Shown here piece after piece: positions 443-5,630 of a stretch of DNA of 6,604 nucleotides. Every line of letters begins with the position of its first letter. The first letter of the stretch is position 1. The stretch is from JBFMHD01 sp040752395 [NCBI: Candidatus Hydrogenedentota bacterium]. Its GTDB lineage: Bacteria > JBFMHD01. The notes under the pieces are model-generated. The model ran no database searches. It worked only from the letters and a program-made list of their open reading frames with translations, and was not told the origin of the DNA. The position numbers were made by a program, and so were the translations under genes. The DNA lies in NCBI GenBank assembly GCA_040752395.1, contig JBFMHD010000154.1, positions 1 through 6,604 of the forward strand, read 5' to 3'.

Positions 443-470
443 ATTAGAGTTACAATGTTTTTCGAAGGAG
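443..470 (+). promoter_or_regulatory. 28-nt leader module 1 (upstream of mini-ORF 1)
   Basis: ATTAGAGTT, six variable bases, TTTTT, two variable bases and then AAGGAG, placed 5 bases before an ATG. It has the same length and order as the modules at 596-623, 3427-3454 and 3574-3601. The G-rich end is a Shine-Dalgarno sequence. The preceding U-rich stretch could act as a translation enhancer, which is inference. TACAAT at 451-456 resembles a -10 box but has no well-spaced -35 box. Confidence 0.65.
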
Positions 471-475
471 TACTC

Positions 476-580
476 ATGAGCGCGTTTGCGCTCTACACGA
501 GGTATGAAAAACTAAAGATGATATGTTGGCTTCGGGCTCCGGGCTTCGGGCCCCAGCCGGCTGTAGTCCGTAGCCTGTAG
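476..580 (+). CDS. Possible mini-ORF 1 (34 codons, begins MSAFALYT)
   Basis: ATG at 476 lies 5 bases after AAGGAG. The frame runs to TAG at 578-580. The peptide starts MSAFALYT, continues with EKLKM, and ends VVRSL. The mini-ORF in the second cassette (3460-3558) has the same start, the same EKLKMI stretch and the same RSL ending in the same frame, despite different insertions. A 6-bp stem, GAGCGC-GTTT-GCGCTC (478-493), begins at the last base of the start codon and could limit initiation. No function is recognised. It may be a leader peptide, a tiny real gene or simply part of a non-coding repeat. Confidence that it is translated is low. Confidence 0.3.
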   Translation: MSAFALYTRYEKLKMICWLRAPGFGPQPAVVRSL

Positions 581-595
581 CCTGTACCCCGAATT

Positions 596-623
596 ATTAG
601 AGTTGCGAAGTTTTTATGAGGAG
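596..623 (+). promoter_or_regulatory. 28-nt leader module 2, carrying the methyltransferase RBS
   Basis: ATTAGAGTT, six bases, TTTTT, two bases, then GAGGAG, which extends to AGGAGG at 619-624 and lies 5 bases from ATG 630. It is the same module that precedes PPK1 and both mini-ORFs. It supports ATG 630 as the methyltransferase start. Confidence 0.65.
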
Positions 624-629
624 GTTTGA

Positions 630-1346
630 ATGAAGCTATACGGTAAAAATGTTTGTTTAGAAACTTTAAAGACCAACCCGAATAAAGTTGAAAAAGTCTT
701 TATAAGAAAAAACATAAAAGGAAATAAAATAGAAGCTATTATAAAGTTATGTAGAGAAAATAAAATACCGTTTATATTTTATCAAGACAAACATAGCGAG
801 AATGATACGCAGGGTGTATATCTTGTTAAAGCTTCTGCTTGTATAATTGATGACGATATGTTGCTTTCAGATTTTGCAGAACTCAAAAAAGGATATATCC
901 TTGTCATTGACAGTATCTACGACCCACGAAATTTAGGTGCGATTATTCGCAGCGCATCTGCATTTTATTGCTATGGCATAGTCCTGCCTAAAAGGAATAG
1001 CCCACCGATAAGTGATGTCGTCTATAAAACCAGTAGCGGATATGTAGAAAAAATTAAAATTACAAGAACAGTAAACATAGCACGGTTTCTTGATCAAGTA
1101 AAAGAACTGGGTATCCAGGTAGTAGGTTTATCTGTTTCCGGGAATACACAATTAGAGGGTTTCAGTTTTGATACTAAGGTCTGTATAGTTGTAGGTAGTG
1201 AAGATAAAGGTATCAGGTTAAATGTAGCAAAAAGATGTGACAGTCTTGTAAGAATACCTATGCAGCAGGGGATTGATTCTCTTAATATTTCAGTAGCCTG
1301 CAGTATAACTTTTTATGAAATATTTAAACAGCTATTTTTTAAATAG
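630..1346 (+). CDS. rlmB: SpoU/TrmH-family 2'-O-methyltransferase, RlmB-like (23S rRNA Gm2251 type)
   Basis: A 238-residue protein, close to the usual 240-250 of RlmB. It has a short L30e-like substrate-binding domain (about residues 1-75; opens with LYGKNVCLETL) and a C-terminal SPOUT knot domain. The three family motifs are present: DPRNLGAIIRSA (98-109), VVGSEDKGI (187-195) and IPM followed by SLNISVA (209-223). These form the SAM pocket and carry the catalytic Arg and Asn. RlmB methylates the ribose of a conserved guanosine in the 23S rRNA P-loop. The usual HQG at the domain linker reads TQG (60-62), a small deviation. AGGAGG lies 5 bases before the ATG, so the start is secure. Exact target (RlmB or a related TrmH-like RNA methylase) cannot be settled by eye. 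It has no obvious functional tie to the downstream polyP genes. Confidence 0.85.
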   Translation: MKLYGKNVCLETLKTNPNKVEKVFIRKNIKGNKIEAIIKLCRENKIPFIFYQDKHSENDTQGVYLVKASACIIDDDMLLSDFAELKKGYILVIDSIYDPRNLGAIIRSASAFYCYGIVLPKRNSPPISDVVYKTSSGYVEKIKITRTVNIARFLDQVKELGIQVVGLSVSGNTQLEGFSFDTKVCIVVGSEDKGIRLNVAKRCDSLVRIPMQQGIDSLNISVACSITFYEIFKQLFFK

Positions 1347-1367
1347 GGACACATCCCATATTTCAAG

Positions 1368-1703
1368 TTATTTCTTCAGATAATTTTTATCGGACCTTTT
1401 ATATTCGGTACTGCGGTTGCTAAAACTATCGGAAAAGAAATAGTTGACCCGCATGTAATAGACGTATGGGTAGTATGCGGTGCATTAGTGGGTGCTATTT
1501 TTTGGAACCTCCTCACCTGGTGGCTTGGCTTTCCCTCATCCTCAAGCCATGCACTTGTTGGAGGATTAGGTGTCAGCGTTATAGCATCAACCGGGTTCCA
1601 ATTCCTAAAAATACACGGATTTGTTAAGATAGTAATAGTCCTTATAACATCACCAGCTGTAATTATAACAGTACTAATAAAAAATAAGTATTTAATCCGT
1701 TGA
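1368..1703 (+). pseudogene. PiT-family (PHO4) phosphate transporter relic, lacking both ends
   Basis: The frame is open from just after the methyltransferase stop to TGA 1701-1703. From about 1368 it reads as an inner piece of an inorganic phosphate transporter. GTAVAKTIGKEIVDP (1407-1451) matches the segment after the first helices. It is followed by a membrane stretch, then WNLLTWWLGFPSSSSHALVG (1503-1562), a signature of this family, then KIHGFVKIVIVLITSP (1608-1655). PiT proteins have some 300-500 residues; here about 110 remain. The N-terminal helices with the first FNDxAN-type motif are missing and no start with an RBS is seen. Homology also fades after SP (about 1655) into AT-rich sequence. 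GTG 1488 could open a 71-codon reading frame but lies inside the conserved region. The relic beside Ppx and PPK1 points to a former phosphate-uptake gene in the polyP locus. Confidence 0.85.
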
Positions 1704-1729
1704 CATTATACTAAAAGATAGTTTATTAA
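1700..1729 (+). promoter_or_regulatory. Candidate promoter for the Ppx/GppA gene
   Basis: TTGACA (1700-1705) is a perfect -35 match. TATTAA (1724-1729) follows after 18 bases as a moderate -10. It overlaps the last codon of the transporter relic and leads toward the Ppx start at 1830. The long leader (about 90-95 bases) would include the inverted repeat arm at 1755-1763 and the GC-rich hairpin at 1791-1809. Motif match only. Confidence 0.4.
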
Positions 1730-1763
1730 TATTTTATTTATATGAGCCTCTCTCTTTAGTATA
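1708..1763. repeat. 9-bp inverted repeat around the Ppx promoter region
   Basis: TATACTAAA (1708-1716) is exactly complementary to TTTAGTATA (1755-1763), with 38 bases between. The left arm lies between the -35 and -10 of the candidate promoter. It could be a two-site operator, the stem of an RNA fold, or the ends of a decayed insertion. Confidence 0.4.
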
Positions 1764-1790
1764 GCGAAAAGGAAGGTACCATAGCTGTCC

Positions 1791-1809
1791 CCCACACGTG
1801 GGGTGTGGG
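1791..1809 (+). promoter_or_regulatory. GC-rich hairpin just upstream of the Ppx ribosome binding site
   Basis: CCCACAC (1791-1797) pairs perfectly with GTGTGGG (1803-1809) across a 5-base loop. An alternative stem pairs CCCCA (1790-1794) with TGGGG (1799-1803). It ends 11 bases before the GAGG at 1821-1824. There is no U-tract after it, so a terminator is unlikely. It stands out in otherwise AT-rich surroundings. Possible roles are RNA stabilisation or translational control, both inferred. Confidence 0.45.
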
Positions 1810-1829
1810 TGGGGGTTTATGAGGATGTA

Positions 1830-3392
1830 ATGATTATGGAGAACCAGAAACAGGTTAACAGGGCTGGAGTTATTGATATAGGTTCACATTCTATTAAATT
1901 AATTATAGGTGAAGCTATTGGTGACGACGTCAAAATAATCGAGCTTTTAAAACATCTTTTACCCATAGGCAAAGATACCTTCTATAAAAACATTATTACC
2001 CAGGAGACAATTAAGCAGACTATAAACATCTTATCAAAATATAAGAAGGTATTAGAAGAATATGCTATAACTGATATAAGGGTAATAGCAACCAATGCTG
2101 TGCGTGAAGCAAACAATAAAGATATTTTTATTGATTCTGTGTATCGCAAAACAGGGTTCAGGGTAGAGGTCTTAACTGTTGGTGATGTAATTTATTTTGT
2201 TGATTCATATATTTCTTACAAATTAAAGGATAAATATCCTACTCATGAAAAGAATCTATTAATAGCGGAATTAAGTGCAGGCGCCATAGAATTCTCTATT
2301 ATGGAAAATGGTTATGTGGTTATGAGTCGAGCTGCGCCACTTGGGTCATTACAATTAAAACAGATTATAAGTAAACTCAAGAGCAGCCAGCAAAAAAATC
2401 TTGAAGCTGTAAAAGAGTATTTTGAGAACGAATTAGAATATATAAAACGGTTTATCCCAACTAAAAAGATTGATGATATCATTCTGATAAGCGAGGATTT
2501 AGCTTTTTCAATAGAAAACATACTAAAAGAGAAGCGAAAAGAATCGACATTTTTCACCATAACAAAGGAAGAGGCTCTAAGTTTTGCGTCAAAGTGTGAG
2601 GGTAAATCTGCTGACGAAATAATGAATACTCATAAATTGCCGTTTGACATTGCCGAGATAACAGGGATATTTTCTATAATACTTAGTTCATTTTTCACAT
2701 TTACCGAGAACAAATACATTTATGTCCTTGAGACATCGTTATACGAAGCTGTTTTATCACATATGCTTGAGCAATATACGCCATCAAGACAATACAAAAA
2801 AATTGACCATCTTATTGCTATGACAAAATCTCTATGCACAAAATATAATGTAAATATCAATCATTCTGAATACGTTGCAAATCTGTCTAAAACAATTTTT
2901 ACTTCTTTACGGGAGATACTTGGTTTACAGCAGGGTGATTTACTCCATCTTCTGCTTGCCTCGTATCTACATGATATAGGTATGTTTATCTCTAATCGGG
3001 TTCATCATAAACATTCAGAATACATTATAAGTTCTCTTAATCTCTCAAGACTCGAAGAAGAAGATATGAAAACCATTGCAGCAATAGCAAGATACCACAG
3101 GAAGGCAGCGCCAAGCCCTAACCATCCACTCTATGCCTCGCTTCCGGCTGAGAAACAGATAAAAATCCAGAAGATGAGTGCTATTTTAAGAATAAGTAAT
3201 AGCCTTGACCGGTCTCATAAACAAAAGATTAGAGACTTAACTGTTAAAATAGATAAAGACCAGAATATTGTTCTTACTGCTATTGTGTCAGGTAACTTTA
3301 TTCTTGAAGAAATGGATTTCGACGAAAAAAAGAAATTTCTTGAAGATATAACAGGAACTAAAATCAGTCTAAAAGTTACTACAAAAACTTAA
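1830..3392 (+). CDS. ppx: Ppx/GppA-family protein with degenerate phosphatase site and intact HD domain
   Basis: 520 residues from ATG 1830, which has GAGG 5 bases upstream. An upstream GTG at 1803 lies inside a hairpin and has no RBS. The N-terminal ASKHA half has the first phosphate motif as DIGSHS (16-21; usually DIGSNS) and ATNAVREA (87-94). The later motifs are eroded. Where exopolyphosphatases have ISG-x-EEA, this protein has LTVGDVI (115-121), so the catalytic Glu is at best an Asp. The D-x-GGGS-x-E loop reads ELSAGAIE (147-154). The C-terminal HD-type domain keeps its residues: H345, HD at 381-382, HHKH (392-395), YHRK (422-425) and LDRSH (459-463). The family hydrolyses polyP or pppGpp. 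This member may be weak, altered or a sensor, with the HD part as the conserved function. It shares its orientation with PPK1 216 bases downstream, and no intrinsic terminator is visible between them. Confidence 0.85.
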   Translation: MIMENQKQVNRAGVIDIGSHSIKLIIGEAIGDDVKIIELLKHLLPIGKDTFYKNIITQETIKQTINILSKYKKVLEEYAITDIRVIATNAVREANNKDIFIDSVYRKTGFRVEVLTVGDVIYFVDSYISYKLKDKYPTHEKNLLIAELSAGAIEFSIMENGYVVMSRAAPLGSLQLKQIISKLKSSQQKNLEAVKEYFENELEYIKRFIPTKKIDDIILISEDLAFSIENILKEKRKESTFFTITKEEALSFASKCEGKSADEIMNTHKLPFDIAEITGIFSIILSSFFTFTENKYIYVLETSLYEAVLSHMLEQYTPSRQYKKIDHLIAMTKSLCTKYNVNINHSEYVANLSKTIFTSLREILGLQQGDLLHLLLASYLHDIGMFISNRVHHKHSEYIISSLNLSRLEEEDMKTIAAIARYHRKAAPSPNHPLYASLPAEKQIKIQKMSAILRISNSLDRSHKQKIRDLTVKIDKDQNIVLTAIVSGNFILEEMDFDEKKKFLEDITGTKISLKVTTKT

Positions 3393-3426
3393 ACCAGCAC
3401 TTTGCTTCTTGCTTCTACTTGATATT

Positions 3427-3454
3427 ATTATAGTTACAATGTTTTTCGAAGGAG
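3427..3454 (+). promoter_or_regulatory. 28-nt leader module 3 (upstream of mini-ORF 2)
   Basis: ATTATAGTT, six bases, TTTTT, two bases, AAGGAG. It differs from module 1 by a single base in this stretch and lies 5 bases before ATG 3460. Confidence 0.65.
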
Positions 3455-3459
3455 TCAAC

Positions 3460-3558
3460 ATGAGCGCGTTTGCGCTCTACACTATTGGGTTCTTGGGTTC
3501 TTGCGTTATTGCGCTCTACACAAAGGATGAAAAACTAAAGATGATCCGTAGCCTGTAG
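3460..3558 (+). CDS. Possible mini-ORF 2 (32 codons, begins MSAFALYT)
   Basis: ATG 3460 lies 5 bases after AAGGAG, with stop TAG at 3556-3558. It starts MSAFALYT, has a 13-codon insertion relative to mini-ORF 1 (ending in a repeated ALYT), then KDEKLKMIRSL. It shares start, core and final three residues with mini-ORF 1. The insertion is a multiple of three and adds no stop. The GAGCGC-GTTT-GCGCTC stem again begins at the start codon (3462-3477). No known family. It may be a leader peptide or a repeat by-product. Confidence 0.3.
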   Translation: MSAFALYTIGFLGSCVIALYTKDEKLKMIRSL

Positions 3559-3573
3559 CCTGTACCCCGAATT

Positions 3574-3601
3574 ATTAGAGTTACAGCGTTTTTCAGAGGA
3601 G
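3574..3601 (+). promoter_or_regulatory. 28-nt leader module 4, carrying the PPK1 RBS
   Basis: ATTAGAGTT, six bases, TTTTT, two bases, GAGGAG, with 7 bases to ATG 3609. It is the same module as upstream of the methyltransferase (596-623) and both mini-ORFs. Confidence 0.65.
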
Positions 3602-3608
3602 ATTAGCG

Positions 3609-5630
3609 ATGGAACCAAAATCACGGTTCATACACAGAGAAATAAGCTGGCTTAGTTTTAATGAACGTGTCCTTGAAGAAGCCGAGGATCTGAATAATCC
3701 GTTATTTGAAAGACTAAACTTTCTTGCTATCTTTATAAATAATCTTGATGAATTTATTATGGTTCGTGTTGCGGGTATTAAACGCCTTATCGATGCTAAT
3801 TTTACAGAAAGGGATGAATACGGTTATCTACCATCTGAAATATTTAATGAAATCACTAAAAAGATCGAGATTTTAATCAAAAGATTATATAATATTTACA
3901 ATAATCTCCTTAATAACGAGTTAAAACAGAACAAAATATCTTTTAAAAAATATCAAGAACTAAACCCACAAGAAAAAAAAGCCGTAAACCAATATTTTGA
4001 ATCAACGTTATTCCCTGTAATCACACCTATGGCTGTTGACCGAGGCCATCCTTTCCCAATACTACCTTCGAAAACAATCTCGTTTGCTCTCGTGATAGAG
4101 CGATATAATAAACCATATCTCTCGATACTACCTATCCCTTCTGTGGTACCACGTGTTTTTAAATTGCCATCACAAGATAATGAATCCAATTTTATATTAA
4201 TAGATGAGATTATACGTGCAAATTTAGATGCTTTTTTCAGGGGTTATAAGATAGTTGAAAACTCTATTTTTCGTATTTTAAGAGACAGTGAGCTGGAGAT
4301 TAAAGAAGAATATACTGAAGACCTTCTTAAATCAATTGAGAATGAACTAAAAAAACGGCCTTATGCTAAAGCCATCTATCTCGAACTTGAAAAACAGGTT
4401 TCAACTGATCTTTTGGCAAAATTATGTGACGAGCTTGAAATACCAGCAAGCGAAGTGAAAGTTATTGATAATATCCTTGATCTCTCATTCTTTTTTGATT
4501 TTATTTCAAAGTATTCAATCCCTGAATTCCGTTATAGAAGTTTCACCAGTAAAGAGATAAAATACTCAAATATTTTTGATAGAATAAAACAGGAAAATTT
4601 TACTTTACATCTGCCATTTCAATCGTTCCAGCCAGTGGCTGATTTTATAAAGACCGCTTCGCAGGACCCAAATGTCCTTGCTATAAAGATGACTCTATAC
4701 AGAACAAACGCTGATTCATCTATTATCAAGGCATTAGAAGAAGCAGCCAGAAATAATAAACAGGTAACGGTATTAGTTGAATTGCGGGCAAGGTTTGAGG
4801 AGGAAAAAAATATACTCTGGGCACATGAGCTTGAGAACGCAGGCTGCCATGTAATTTACGGTGTTGAAAAACTCAAGATACATTCAAAAATAGCGCTTAT
4901 CGTAAGAAAGGAAGAAGAGGGTATTAAAAGATACATCCATCTTTCTACAGGCAATTACAACGAAAAAACAGCAAAGATTTATACAGATATCGGGTTCTTT
5001 ACAGCAAACGAAGACTTTGCAAGAGATATATCTGATGTTTTTAATGTAATATCAGGTTATTCTACACCACCACGATGGAAAAAGGTTACCTCAGCCCCTA
5101 ATGACCTGCGTCAATACTTCTTCAATCTCATTGATAATGAAATCGATAATCAGAAAAAATACGGTAATGGCTTAATATTTGCCAAAATAAATTCGCTTGC
5201 GGACAATCAGATGATAGAAAAACTTTATGAAGCATCAGCAAATGGTGTTAAAATAAAATTAATCGTTCGCGGTATCTGTTGCCTTATACCCGGTGTCACG
5301 GGTTTAAGCGAGAACATTGAGGTTAAAAGTATTGTTGGCAGATTCCTTGAACACAGTAGAATATATCTGTTTAACAACAACAACGATCCCCGGTTATTTT
5401 TGTCGTCTGCTGACTGGATGACCCGAAATTTCGACCGAAGGATAGAATTAGTTTTCCCTGTTGAAGACGAGAATTTAAAAGAGGAGCTGATATTTATATT
5501 AAATAAATACTGGGAAGATAACTTAAAATCAAGATTTTTAAAAGCTGACAAAACATATATCCCTGATAATATCTCTGATAAACAATCAAACGTTCAGGAA
5601 AGCCTGATTGAGTATTACTCCTGGAGATAA
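3609..5630 (+). CDS. ppk1: Polyphosphate kinase 1 (PPK1)
   Basis: 673 residues, near the usual 680-720, with all four PPK1 regions. The N-terminal domain opens with the family's REISWLSFNERVLEEA (10-25) and NNLDEFIMVRVAG (44-56). The head domain has ITPMAVDRGHPFP (138-150). Two PLD-like catalytic domains follow. The first has KMTLYRT (360-366), ELRARFEE (391-398), KIHSK with the His expected to be phosphorylated (H425), and STGNYNEKTA (446-455). The second has GRFLEHSRIY with the second active-site His (H582) and SSADWMTRNFDRR (599-611). The enzyme reversibly transfers the gamma phosphate of ATP onto a growing polyP chain, usually membrane- or granule-associated. No key residue seems lost, so it should be active. 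AGAGGAG lies 7 bases before ATG. The next gene starts 3 bases after the stop, so the two are almost certainly cotranscribed. Confidence 0.97.
   Translation: MEPKSRFIHREISWLSFNERVLEEAEDLNNPLFERLNFLAIFINNLDEFIMVRVAGIKRLIDANFTERDEYGYLPSEIFNEITKKIEILIKRLYNIYNNLLNNELKQNKISFKKYQELNPQEKKAVNQYFESTLFPVITPMAVDRGHPFPILPSKTISFALVIERYNKPYLSILPIPSVVPRVFKLPSQDNESNFILIDEIIRANLDAFFRGYKIVENSIFRILRDSELEIKEEYTEDLLKSIENELKKRPYAKAIYLELEKQVSTDLLAKLCDELEIPASEVKVIDNILDLSFFFDFISKYSIPEFRYRSFTSKEIKYSNIFDRIKQENFTLHLPFQSFQPVADFIKTASQDPNVLAIKMTLYRTNADSSIIKALEEAARNNKQVTVLVELRARFEEEKNILWAHELENAGCHVIYGVEKLKIHSKIALIVRKEEEGIKRYIHLSTGNYNEKTAKIYTDIGFFTANEDFARDISDVFNVISGYSTPPRWKKVTSAPNDLRQYFFNLIDNEIDNQKKYGNGLIFAKINSLADNQMIEKLYEASANGVKIKLIVRGICCLIPGVTGLSENIEVKSIVGRFLEHSRIYLFNNNNDPRLFLSSADWMTRNFDRRIELVFPVEDENLKEELIFILNKYWEDNLKSRFLKADKTYIPDNISDKQSNVQESLIEYYSWR

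Follow-up and report, generated by a model that had tools for sequence, protein, structure and literature searches.

A repeated leader upstream of two mini-ORFs and two genes

The window examined here, a 6,604-nt stretch of DNA (contig JBFMHD010000154.1), contains four copies of a short leader, each ending in a Shine–Dalgarno (SD) sequence shortly before an ATG. Two of the leaders precede mini open reading frames (mini-ORFs), and the other two precede rlmB and ppk1. We lean towards explaining them as parts of a lineage-specific, duplicated intergenic cassette that ends in a strong, unstructured ribosome-binding site (RBS), which would now serve rlmB and ppk1.

A first-pass annotation of this DNA described a 28-nt module, ATTA-N-AGTT-N6-TTTTT-N2-RAGGAG, at 443-470, 596-623, 3427-3454 and 3574-3601. 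A pattern scan of the window recovers all four at these positions with 0 mismatches, where 0.04 matches would be expected with up to three mismatches allowed and where none of 200 shuffles reached four copies. An ATG follows each SD sequence after 5-7 bases as described, the spacers of leaders 1-4 being 5, 6, 5 and 7 nt, and the tandem order of leader, mini-ORF, leader and gene is likewise present in both cassettes. Other parts of the description need amendment. The six central bases were said to vary, which is true of four positions, but in the flank-extended alignment the second is C and the sixth is G in all four copies. Although the 28-nt pattern is exact in every copy, the module starts further upstream, with TAC-N8 preceding ATTA in 4/4 copies, and its extended form is TAC-N8-ATTA-N-AGTT-N6-TTTTT-N2-RAGGAG followed by ATG. 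Similarly, the downstream genes were called unrelated; rlmB and ppk1 do differ in function, but they belong to one co-directional cluster, with their ATGs 2979 nt apart. A fifth copy is absent from the window, where the next profile score is 5.6 bits versus 41-43 bits for the four copies, a range that is high by construction because the profile was built from them. The leaders, located by pattern scan and alignment, are as follows.

432-475, + strand: leader 1, TAC-N8-ATTAGAGTT-ACAATG-TTTTT-CG-AAGGAG plus 5-nt spacer
585-629, + strand: leader 2, TAC-N8-ATTAGAGTT-GCGAAG-TTTTT-AT-GAGGAG plus 6-nt spacer, 5' of rlmB
3416-3459, + strand: leader 3, TAC-N8-ATTATAGTT-ACAATG-TTTTT-CG-AAGGAG plus 5-nt spacer
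3563-3608, + strand: leader 4, TAC-N8-ATTAGAGTT-ACAGCG-TTTTT-CA-GAGGAG plus 7-nt spacer, 5' of ppk1

Judged by their sequences, the four copies are two pairs rather than four independent copies. The segments containing the mini-ORF leaders (418-498 and 3402-3482) share 94% identity over 81 nt, and leaders 1 and 3 themselves differ at 1 of 28 bases. The segments containing the gene leaders (567-626 and 3545-3604) share 88% identity over 60 nt. Within this 60-nt repeat the first 38 nt, which end with the AGTT of the module, are identical, and 6 of the next 19 positions differ (Fisher p 0.0007, with the 38/19 cut point picked after looking at the alignment). All six differences fall in the linkers and spare the T5 tract and the SD sequence, a placement that is suggestive only, the motif itself being defined by constancy. 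A recent common origin of the copies would largely explain the fixed spacing.

The resemblance between cassettes continues into the mini-ORFs and the short tandem arrays around them. Both mini-ORFs begin with the same eight residues (MSAFALYT), share EKLKMI and end in RSL and a stop, while their middles differ between cassettes and are derived from 7- and 8-nt repeats; the two lengths differ by 6 nt, and the reading frame is thus kept. Tandem Repeats Finder lists eight distinct period-7/8 arrays in the window, and seven of them fall in the intergenic regions that carry the two cassettes. The array 5' of each leader stops 43-44 nt before the ATG, and the RBS sits in the separate leader rather than in the heptamers. 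The mini-ORFs are taken from the ORF list, the inverted repeats from the sequence, and the arrays from Tandem Repeats Finder.

386-410: further period-7 array
416-432, + strand: heptamer array, TTGCTTC unit, 5' of leader 1
476-580, + strand: mini-ORF 1, 34 aa, terminating within the GTAGCCT array
478-493, + strand: inverted repeat GAGCGC-GTTT-GCGCTC, whose first base is the G of the mini-ORF 1 ATG; paired in the cassette and leader folds
528-551, + strand: heptamer array, GGCTTCG unit, within mini-ORF 1
561-586, + strand: heptamer array, GTAGCCT unit (reported in the rotation CTGTAGC), 5' of leader 2
3402-3416, + strand: heptamer array, TTGCTTC unit, 5' of leader 3
3460-3558, + strand: mini-ORF 2, 32 aa, terminating within the GTAGCCT array
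3462-3477, + strand: inverted repeat GAGCGC-GTTT-GCGCTC at the mini-ORF 2 start codon; paired in the centroid fold, not in the minimum-energy fold
3485-3511, + strand: octamer array, TTGGGTTC unit, within mini-ORF 2
3548-3564, + strand: heptamer array, GTAGCCT unit, 5' of leader 4

Predicted translation-initiation properties of the leaders

The proposal that the module supplies RBSs agrees with the sequence in one central respect, namely that a repeated element ends in a strong SD sequence at a normal distance from an ATG in 4/4 copies. Predicted pairing energies with a generic anti-SD sequence are -7.6, -12.4, -7.6 and -8.4 kcal/mol for leaders 1-4, compared to -6.0 and -6.4 kcal/mol for ppx and the CHAD-domain gene of the same window. 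In addition, a T5 tract two bases 5' of RAGGAG and an ATG 5-7 nt 3' of it make up the sequence expected of an initiation region that combines an A/U-rich enhancer with an SD sequence. The related suggestion of one translational control element common to these genes is not demonstrated: the four leaders have no common stable fold, and an Rfam search of the window gives no match at E values up to 1. Three leaders fold more weakly than their shuffles (z +1.52, +1.31 and +0.63), and the ppk1 leader has a z score of -1.17. The whole cassettes give z scores of -0.29 (73/200 shuffles as good) and -1.57 (15/200).

Several specific identities were rejected. The Rfam result leaves no match to a known RNA family, whether riboswitch, thermometer or leader RNA; a FourU-type RNA thermometer, in which the T-tract would pair with the SD sequence, has no stable fold; and no terminator was found, against 2.0 expected.

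From these features, we infer a repeating unit that would consist of a short heptamer tandem array followed by a translation-initiation region. A cassette would comprise two such units, one after the other and separated by a mini-ORF, one cassette standing 5' of rlmB and the second between ppx and ppk1. Duplication or recombination, with the heptamer arrays as a possible site, may have produced the cassette copy. Of the two leaders in a cassette, the gene-proximal one would be the working RBS of rlmB and of ppk1, with the T5 tract as a putative A/U-rich enhancer beside the SD sequence, while the mini-ORF would be a by-product or, at most, a weak upstream reading frame of modest effect.

The ppx–ppk1 junction

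The second cassette can be placed against relatives. The gap between ppx and ppk1 is 216 nt in the window and is made up of this cassette. In relatives, the same gap is estimated from match ends at 0-92 nt in 33/35 cases and at more than 5 kb in the other two, with a median of 18 nt over all 35. Each of these 35 pairs (from 36 ppx and 35 ppk rows) lies on a single contig; a genome in which just one of the genes was matched is not counted, and G005, a genome described below with a gap of 247 nt, also falls outside the set. In a comparison of loci, ppx lies directly 5' of ppk1 in 19/21 of the relatives' loci and a CHAD gene lies 3' of ppk1 in 10/21, while a 22-locus comparison leaves out L103 and L013, the latter without an adjacent ppx. 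Given the contrast between a 216-nt, cassette-filled gap and gaps of 0-92 nt in 33/35 relatives, it seems that a repeat cassette, whose end supplies the SD sequence of ppk1, has come to separate two genes whose junction is usually tight and probably coupled. For the region upstream of rlmB, the relatives' loci searched gave no rlmB match and hence no comparison.

Searches for the leader and the cassette in other genomes

The module is not detected above control level elsewhere, and these searches of other genomes lend no support to its proposed portability as a genome-wide family. A stricter form, searched exactly, has 0 matches in the genome_contigs collection, and in viral_contigs neither the exact module pattern nor the mini-ORF start is present (0 matches each). 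A shorter form without the SD sequence matches two stretches in viral_contigs, which have the same sequence around the match and neither of which has an SD sequence. With one mismatch allowed, 384 Omnitrophota genomes give four module matches versus eight of the reversed control; with two mismatches, 19 near relatives give two versus seven of the control. Of the four Omnitrophota matches, the two that were examined, L083 and L085, both lie inside genes. A weight-matrix scan of 2.9 Mb of loci yields five matches above 16 bits and none with the reversed matrix, but L083 and L085 are among the five and their loci were chosen for the pattern; another of the five, L238 in G005, is a T5-SD stretch 5' of an ATG. 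Finally, a module profile (R1) reaches at best 19.3 bits in 81 genomes, compared to 41-43 bits for the window copies, in a scan that scored 76 candidates per genome under stricter filters and that can miss weak copies. Five of the first 20 R1 matches lie no more than 25 nt from an ATG that opens a frame of 60 codons.

The leader also does not represent a common type in related genomes. T5-NN-RAGGAG occurs once, at a gene start, in 776 kb from the contigs of four relatives and is therefore not the ordinary leader type of these genomes. A general Omnitrophota leader with a T5 tract beside the SD sequence was rejected as well, the counts versus background being 3/98 versus 0, 2/87 versus 2, 3/124 versus 4 and, in G005, 6/54 versus 3; this comparison uses one background segment and allows several SD matches per gene, which tilts it slightly toward the SD side. 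Gene calls in relatives, for these counts and for those of repeats at gene starts, come from a crude ORF caller.

Searches with the cassette DNA find matches at E values up to 0.1 in 66/384 Omnitrophota genomes, with two candidates scored per genome. At query positions 91-121, the octamer words of mini-ORF 2 account for the best of these (E 1.1e-6). Where a match touches a leader, it spans about 20-45 nt and has an E value of 0.0035 or worse. Eight Omnitrophota genomes (L111-L114, L117, L120, L126 and L129) have word-like tandem repeats of 7-9 nt without the leader. Their words include GTTATTGCG/GTTATTGGG, GTAGCCT and GTCACCA, and they are mostly intergenic and sometimes apparently within genes.

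A start-proximal hairpin repeat in a second genome

When four relatives were screened for repeats at gene starts, G005 (the genome of locus L005, metagenome-assembled genome (MAG) fen_1318) stood out. It contains 112 exact copies of TTTTTNCGNAGNAAAAA versus one of the reversed control; the sequence has matches in 21/42 genomes of the same order, where the next highest count is 13. The repeat is a hairpin composed of a T-tract, N-C-GNA-G-N' and an A-tract. In 76 copies (from 797 kb selected for holding copies; loci L173-L179 and L211-L244), the outer N-N' letters are Watson-Crick pairs in 73 (GC 40, AT 30, CG 2, TA 1), with two G-T and one T-C. An ATG follows within 25 nt (at 2-20 nt) on the same strand in 39/76 copies, compared to 5/76 on the opposite strand and 1103/16,400 random positions, an ATG being counted if its open frame had 80 codons or more (30 or more for frames that run off the stretch). 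In 19 of these 39 start-proximal copies, the ATG has AGGA, GGAG or GAGG 4-16 nt upstream. A second mini-hairpin, for example ATCCGCGAAGCGGAT, frequently stands ahead of the repeat.

The ppx–ppk1 gap of G005 (L005 5748-5994, 247 nt) holds several repeats that recur elsewhere in that genome, and the last of them is a T-tract/CCGAAGG/A-tract hairpin that adjoins ppk1. G005 thus shows that start-proximal repeats exist in Omnitrophota and that repeats occupy the ppx–ppk1 junction in a second genome, and its hairpin is possibly a start-codon-associated repeat family. Homology between this hairpin and the module of the window, a notion prompted by TTTTT-CGAAG in leaders 1 and 3, was rejected: leaders 2 and 4 differ, and the A-tract is missing. 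The window contains no T-tract/NCGNAGN/A-tract hairpin.

A broader proposal, which we regard as rather unlikely, is that uncultured Omnitrophota carry a genome-wide family of portable translation-initiation cassettes that insert into tight operons and uncouple the downstream gene under a uniform leader and mini-ORF. Different lineages would use unrelated repeats in the same role (T5-SD leaders behind heptamer arrays here, T-tract/GNA-triloop hairpins in G005), in both cases at the ppx–ppk1 junction. If repeats supply RBSs, genes could gain independent translation signals by copying rather than by point mutation, and conserved operons could split with expression retained. The parallel with G005 makes the idea of repeat-supplied RBSs testable in a sequenced genome.

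Loci L245-L250 of another genome, G229, hold a distinct and longer repeat that shares the TTTTTGCGRAGCAAAAA core and has comparable flanks (CAATGAGACTTG... ...TAGTCGAAT). It is not start-proximal in the copies read (0/5 intergenic copies).

Competing explanations

Several observations weigh against a recently duplicated cassette that serves as an RBS. The leader is found in none of the searched relatives, and the descent of the cassette thus cannot be traced; nor was a close relative with an empty ppx–ppk1 site found, and G005, another relative, has its own 247-nt gap at this junction. Two cassettes are known, one of which can be placed against relatives. The distribution of differences around the T5 tract, SD sequence and ATG could be compatible with selection instead of recent copying. 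Lastly, the leader 1 segment that includes the mini-ORF hairpin folds somewhat better than its shuffles (z -1.34), and the mini-ORF start may, by this prediction, be less open than the gene starts.

One alternative is an upstream-ORF control device, in which translation of the mini-ORF would modulate initiation at the second leader, with the start-codon hairpin as a possible mediator. The conserved order of elements in both cassettes, the same first eight residues, inverted repeat and stop, and a frame kept despite the 6-nt length difference would all be expected of such a device. However, a frame is kept by chance about 1 time in 3, the shared ends of the mini-ORFs could simply be copied parts, and their middles are heptamer and octamer repeats. 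The cassettes also do not fold clearly better than shuffles and lack an Rfam match, and the mini-ORF stop lies about 50 nt before the gene ATG, which is long for termination–reinitiation coupling. We consider the device unlikely. That the module is instead the general promoter and 5' untranslated region of the organism, or of one regulon, with the copies alike through function rather than duplication, is decidedly unlikely. Constant blocks separated by variable linkers of fixed length fit this idea, as do the differences between leaders 2 and 4, which begin only after 38 shared bases and leave the T5 tract and SD sequence intact. Yet the kinship reaches far beyond the module into the heptamer arrays and the mini-ORF, ppx and the CHAD gene of the same window are without the module, and T5-SD leaders are uncommon in the relatives sampled. 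A Sigma-70 promoter in the leader was likewise rejected, as no promoter-like pair falls within the leaders, and promoter-like sites in the window show no excess (12 versus 13.1 in shuffles).

The presence of two cassettes within a 6.6-kb window, each with an RBS at its end, is also what a dispersed mobile repeat (MITE-, BOX- or REP-like) would produce if it had many genomic copies and captured genes on insertion through a terminal SD sequence and start codon. A repeat family concentrated at start codons does exist in another Omnitrophota genome, G005, but it is unrelated in sequence; the searched genomes have no copies above control level, and of the inverted pairs listed for the window (25 of 69), none bounds a cassette. 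We find this origin quite improbable. Very improbable is an assembly artefact, in which the contig would have been joined at shared repeats and its arrangement would be partly false. An exact 38-nt run is common to the cassettes and the window resembles a contig from a metagenome, but the cassettes differ throughout their middles, and the order of ppx, ppk1 and the CHAD gene recurs in the relatives' loci counted above.

Relation to known systems

Heptamer-type intergenic repeats are already known, and the variant described here pairs heptamer arrays with a separate SD-bearing leader. Cyanobacterial short tandemly repeated repetitive (STRR) sequences consist of 7-nt units repeated in short runs between genes. 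The cassette regions, also intergenic, likewise contain brief arrays with a 7-nt unit; the words differ, however, and the host belongs to another phylum. To our knowledge, no STRR carries an SD module.

The nearest published case we found is the TAACTGA repeat of giant sulfur bacteria. These heptamer direct repeats occur in Cand. Maribeggiatoa (BOGUAY), other Beggiatoaceae, Cyanobacteria and Bacteroidetes, and in BOGUAY they lie mostly within several nucleotides 5' of start codons, with a proposed role in translation (MacGregor 2015, PMC4679880). Both systems thus have heptamer direct repeats in intergenic DNA near gene starts. In that system, the heptamers overlap the expected RBS and SD sequences are rare (PMC4679880), whereas in the window the heptamers are upstream, the words are different, and a separate leader has a strong SD sequence. 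The pneumococcal BOX, RUP and SPRITE elements are small interspersed repeats transcribed together with genes; large BOX elements are reported to form small expressed ORFs, comparable to the mini-ORFs, and those tested were without good SD candidates (Croucher 2011, PMC3049150). BOX elements are described there as structured and as having proliferated through the chromosome (PMC3049150), unlike the leaders here, which bear SD sequences and have no stable structure. With regard to the T5 tract, an E. coli study reports that A/U-rich enhancers and SD sequences are co-operative (Vimberg 2007, PMC2176067), and T5-NN-RAGGAG would be such a combination of an A/U-rich stretch and a strong SD sequence. 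That study concerned sequence variants in E. coli rather than a duplicated repeat module (PMC2176067). In the open-licence literature, the titles found for intergenic repeats of Omnitrophota or Omnitrophica concern other subjects, and none of the matches listed for heptanucleotide or RBS-bearing repeats has a title on Omnitrophota.

Genes of the window and their relatives

The annotated genes, with the evidence for each, are as follows.

630-1346, + strand: rlmB, SpoU family methyltransferase, 238 aa (Pfam PF00588; NCBIfam TIGR00186 above cut-off)
1836-3392, + strand: ppx, Ppx/GppA phosphatase with HD domain, start codon at 1836 assumed (Pfam)
3609-5630, + strand: ppk1, polyphosphate kinase 1, 673 aa (Pfam; TIGR03705 above cut-off)
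5634 to window end: CHAD-domain gene (domain searches)

The nearest relatives of PPK1 are from Omnitrophota and from one MAG labelled Auribacterota, with identities of at most 61%, and PPK1 is present in only 4/44 genomes of the phylum of the latter. The nearest ppx relatives reach up to 53% identity. Judged by these relatives, the window probably belongs to an unsampled, uncultured lineage in or near Omnitrophota.

Divergent from rlmB, positions 1-249 of the minus strand encode the N-terminal part of an apparently membrane-associated protein, which has no Pfam or NCBIfam match at E values up to 0.001. Between rlmB and ppx, we observe the remnant of a PHO4/PiT phosphate transporter (1386-1703) that covers profile positions 33-128 of 350 and is apparently a decayed gene.

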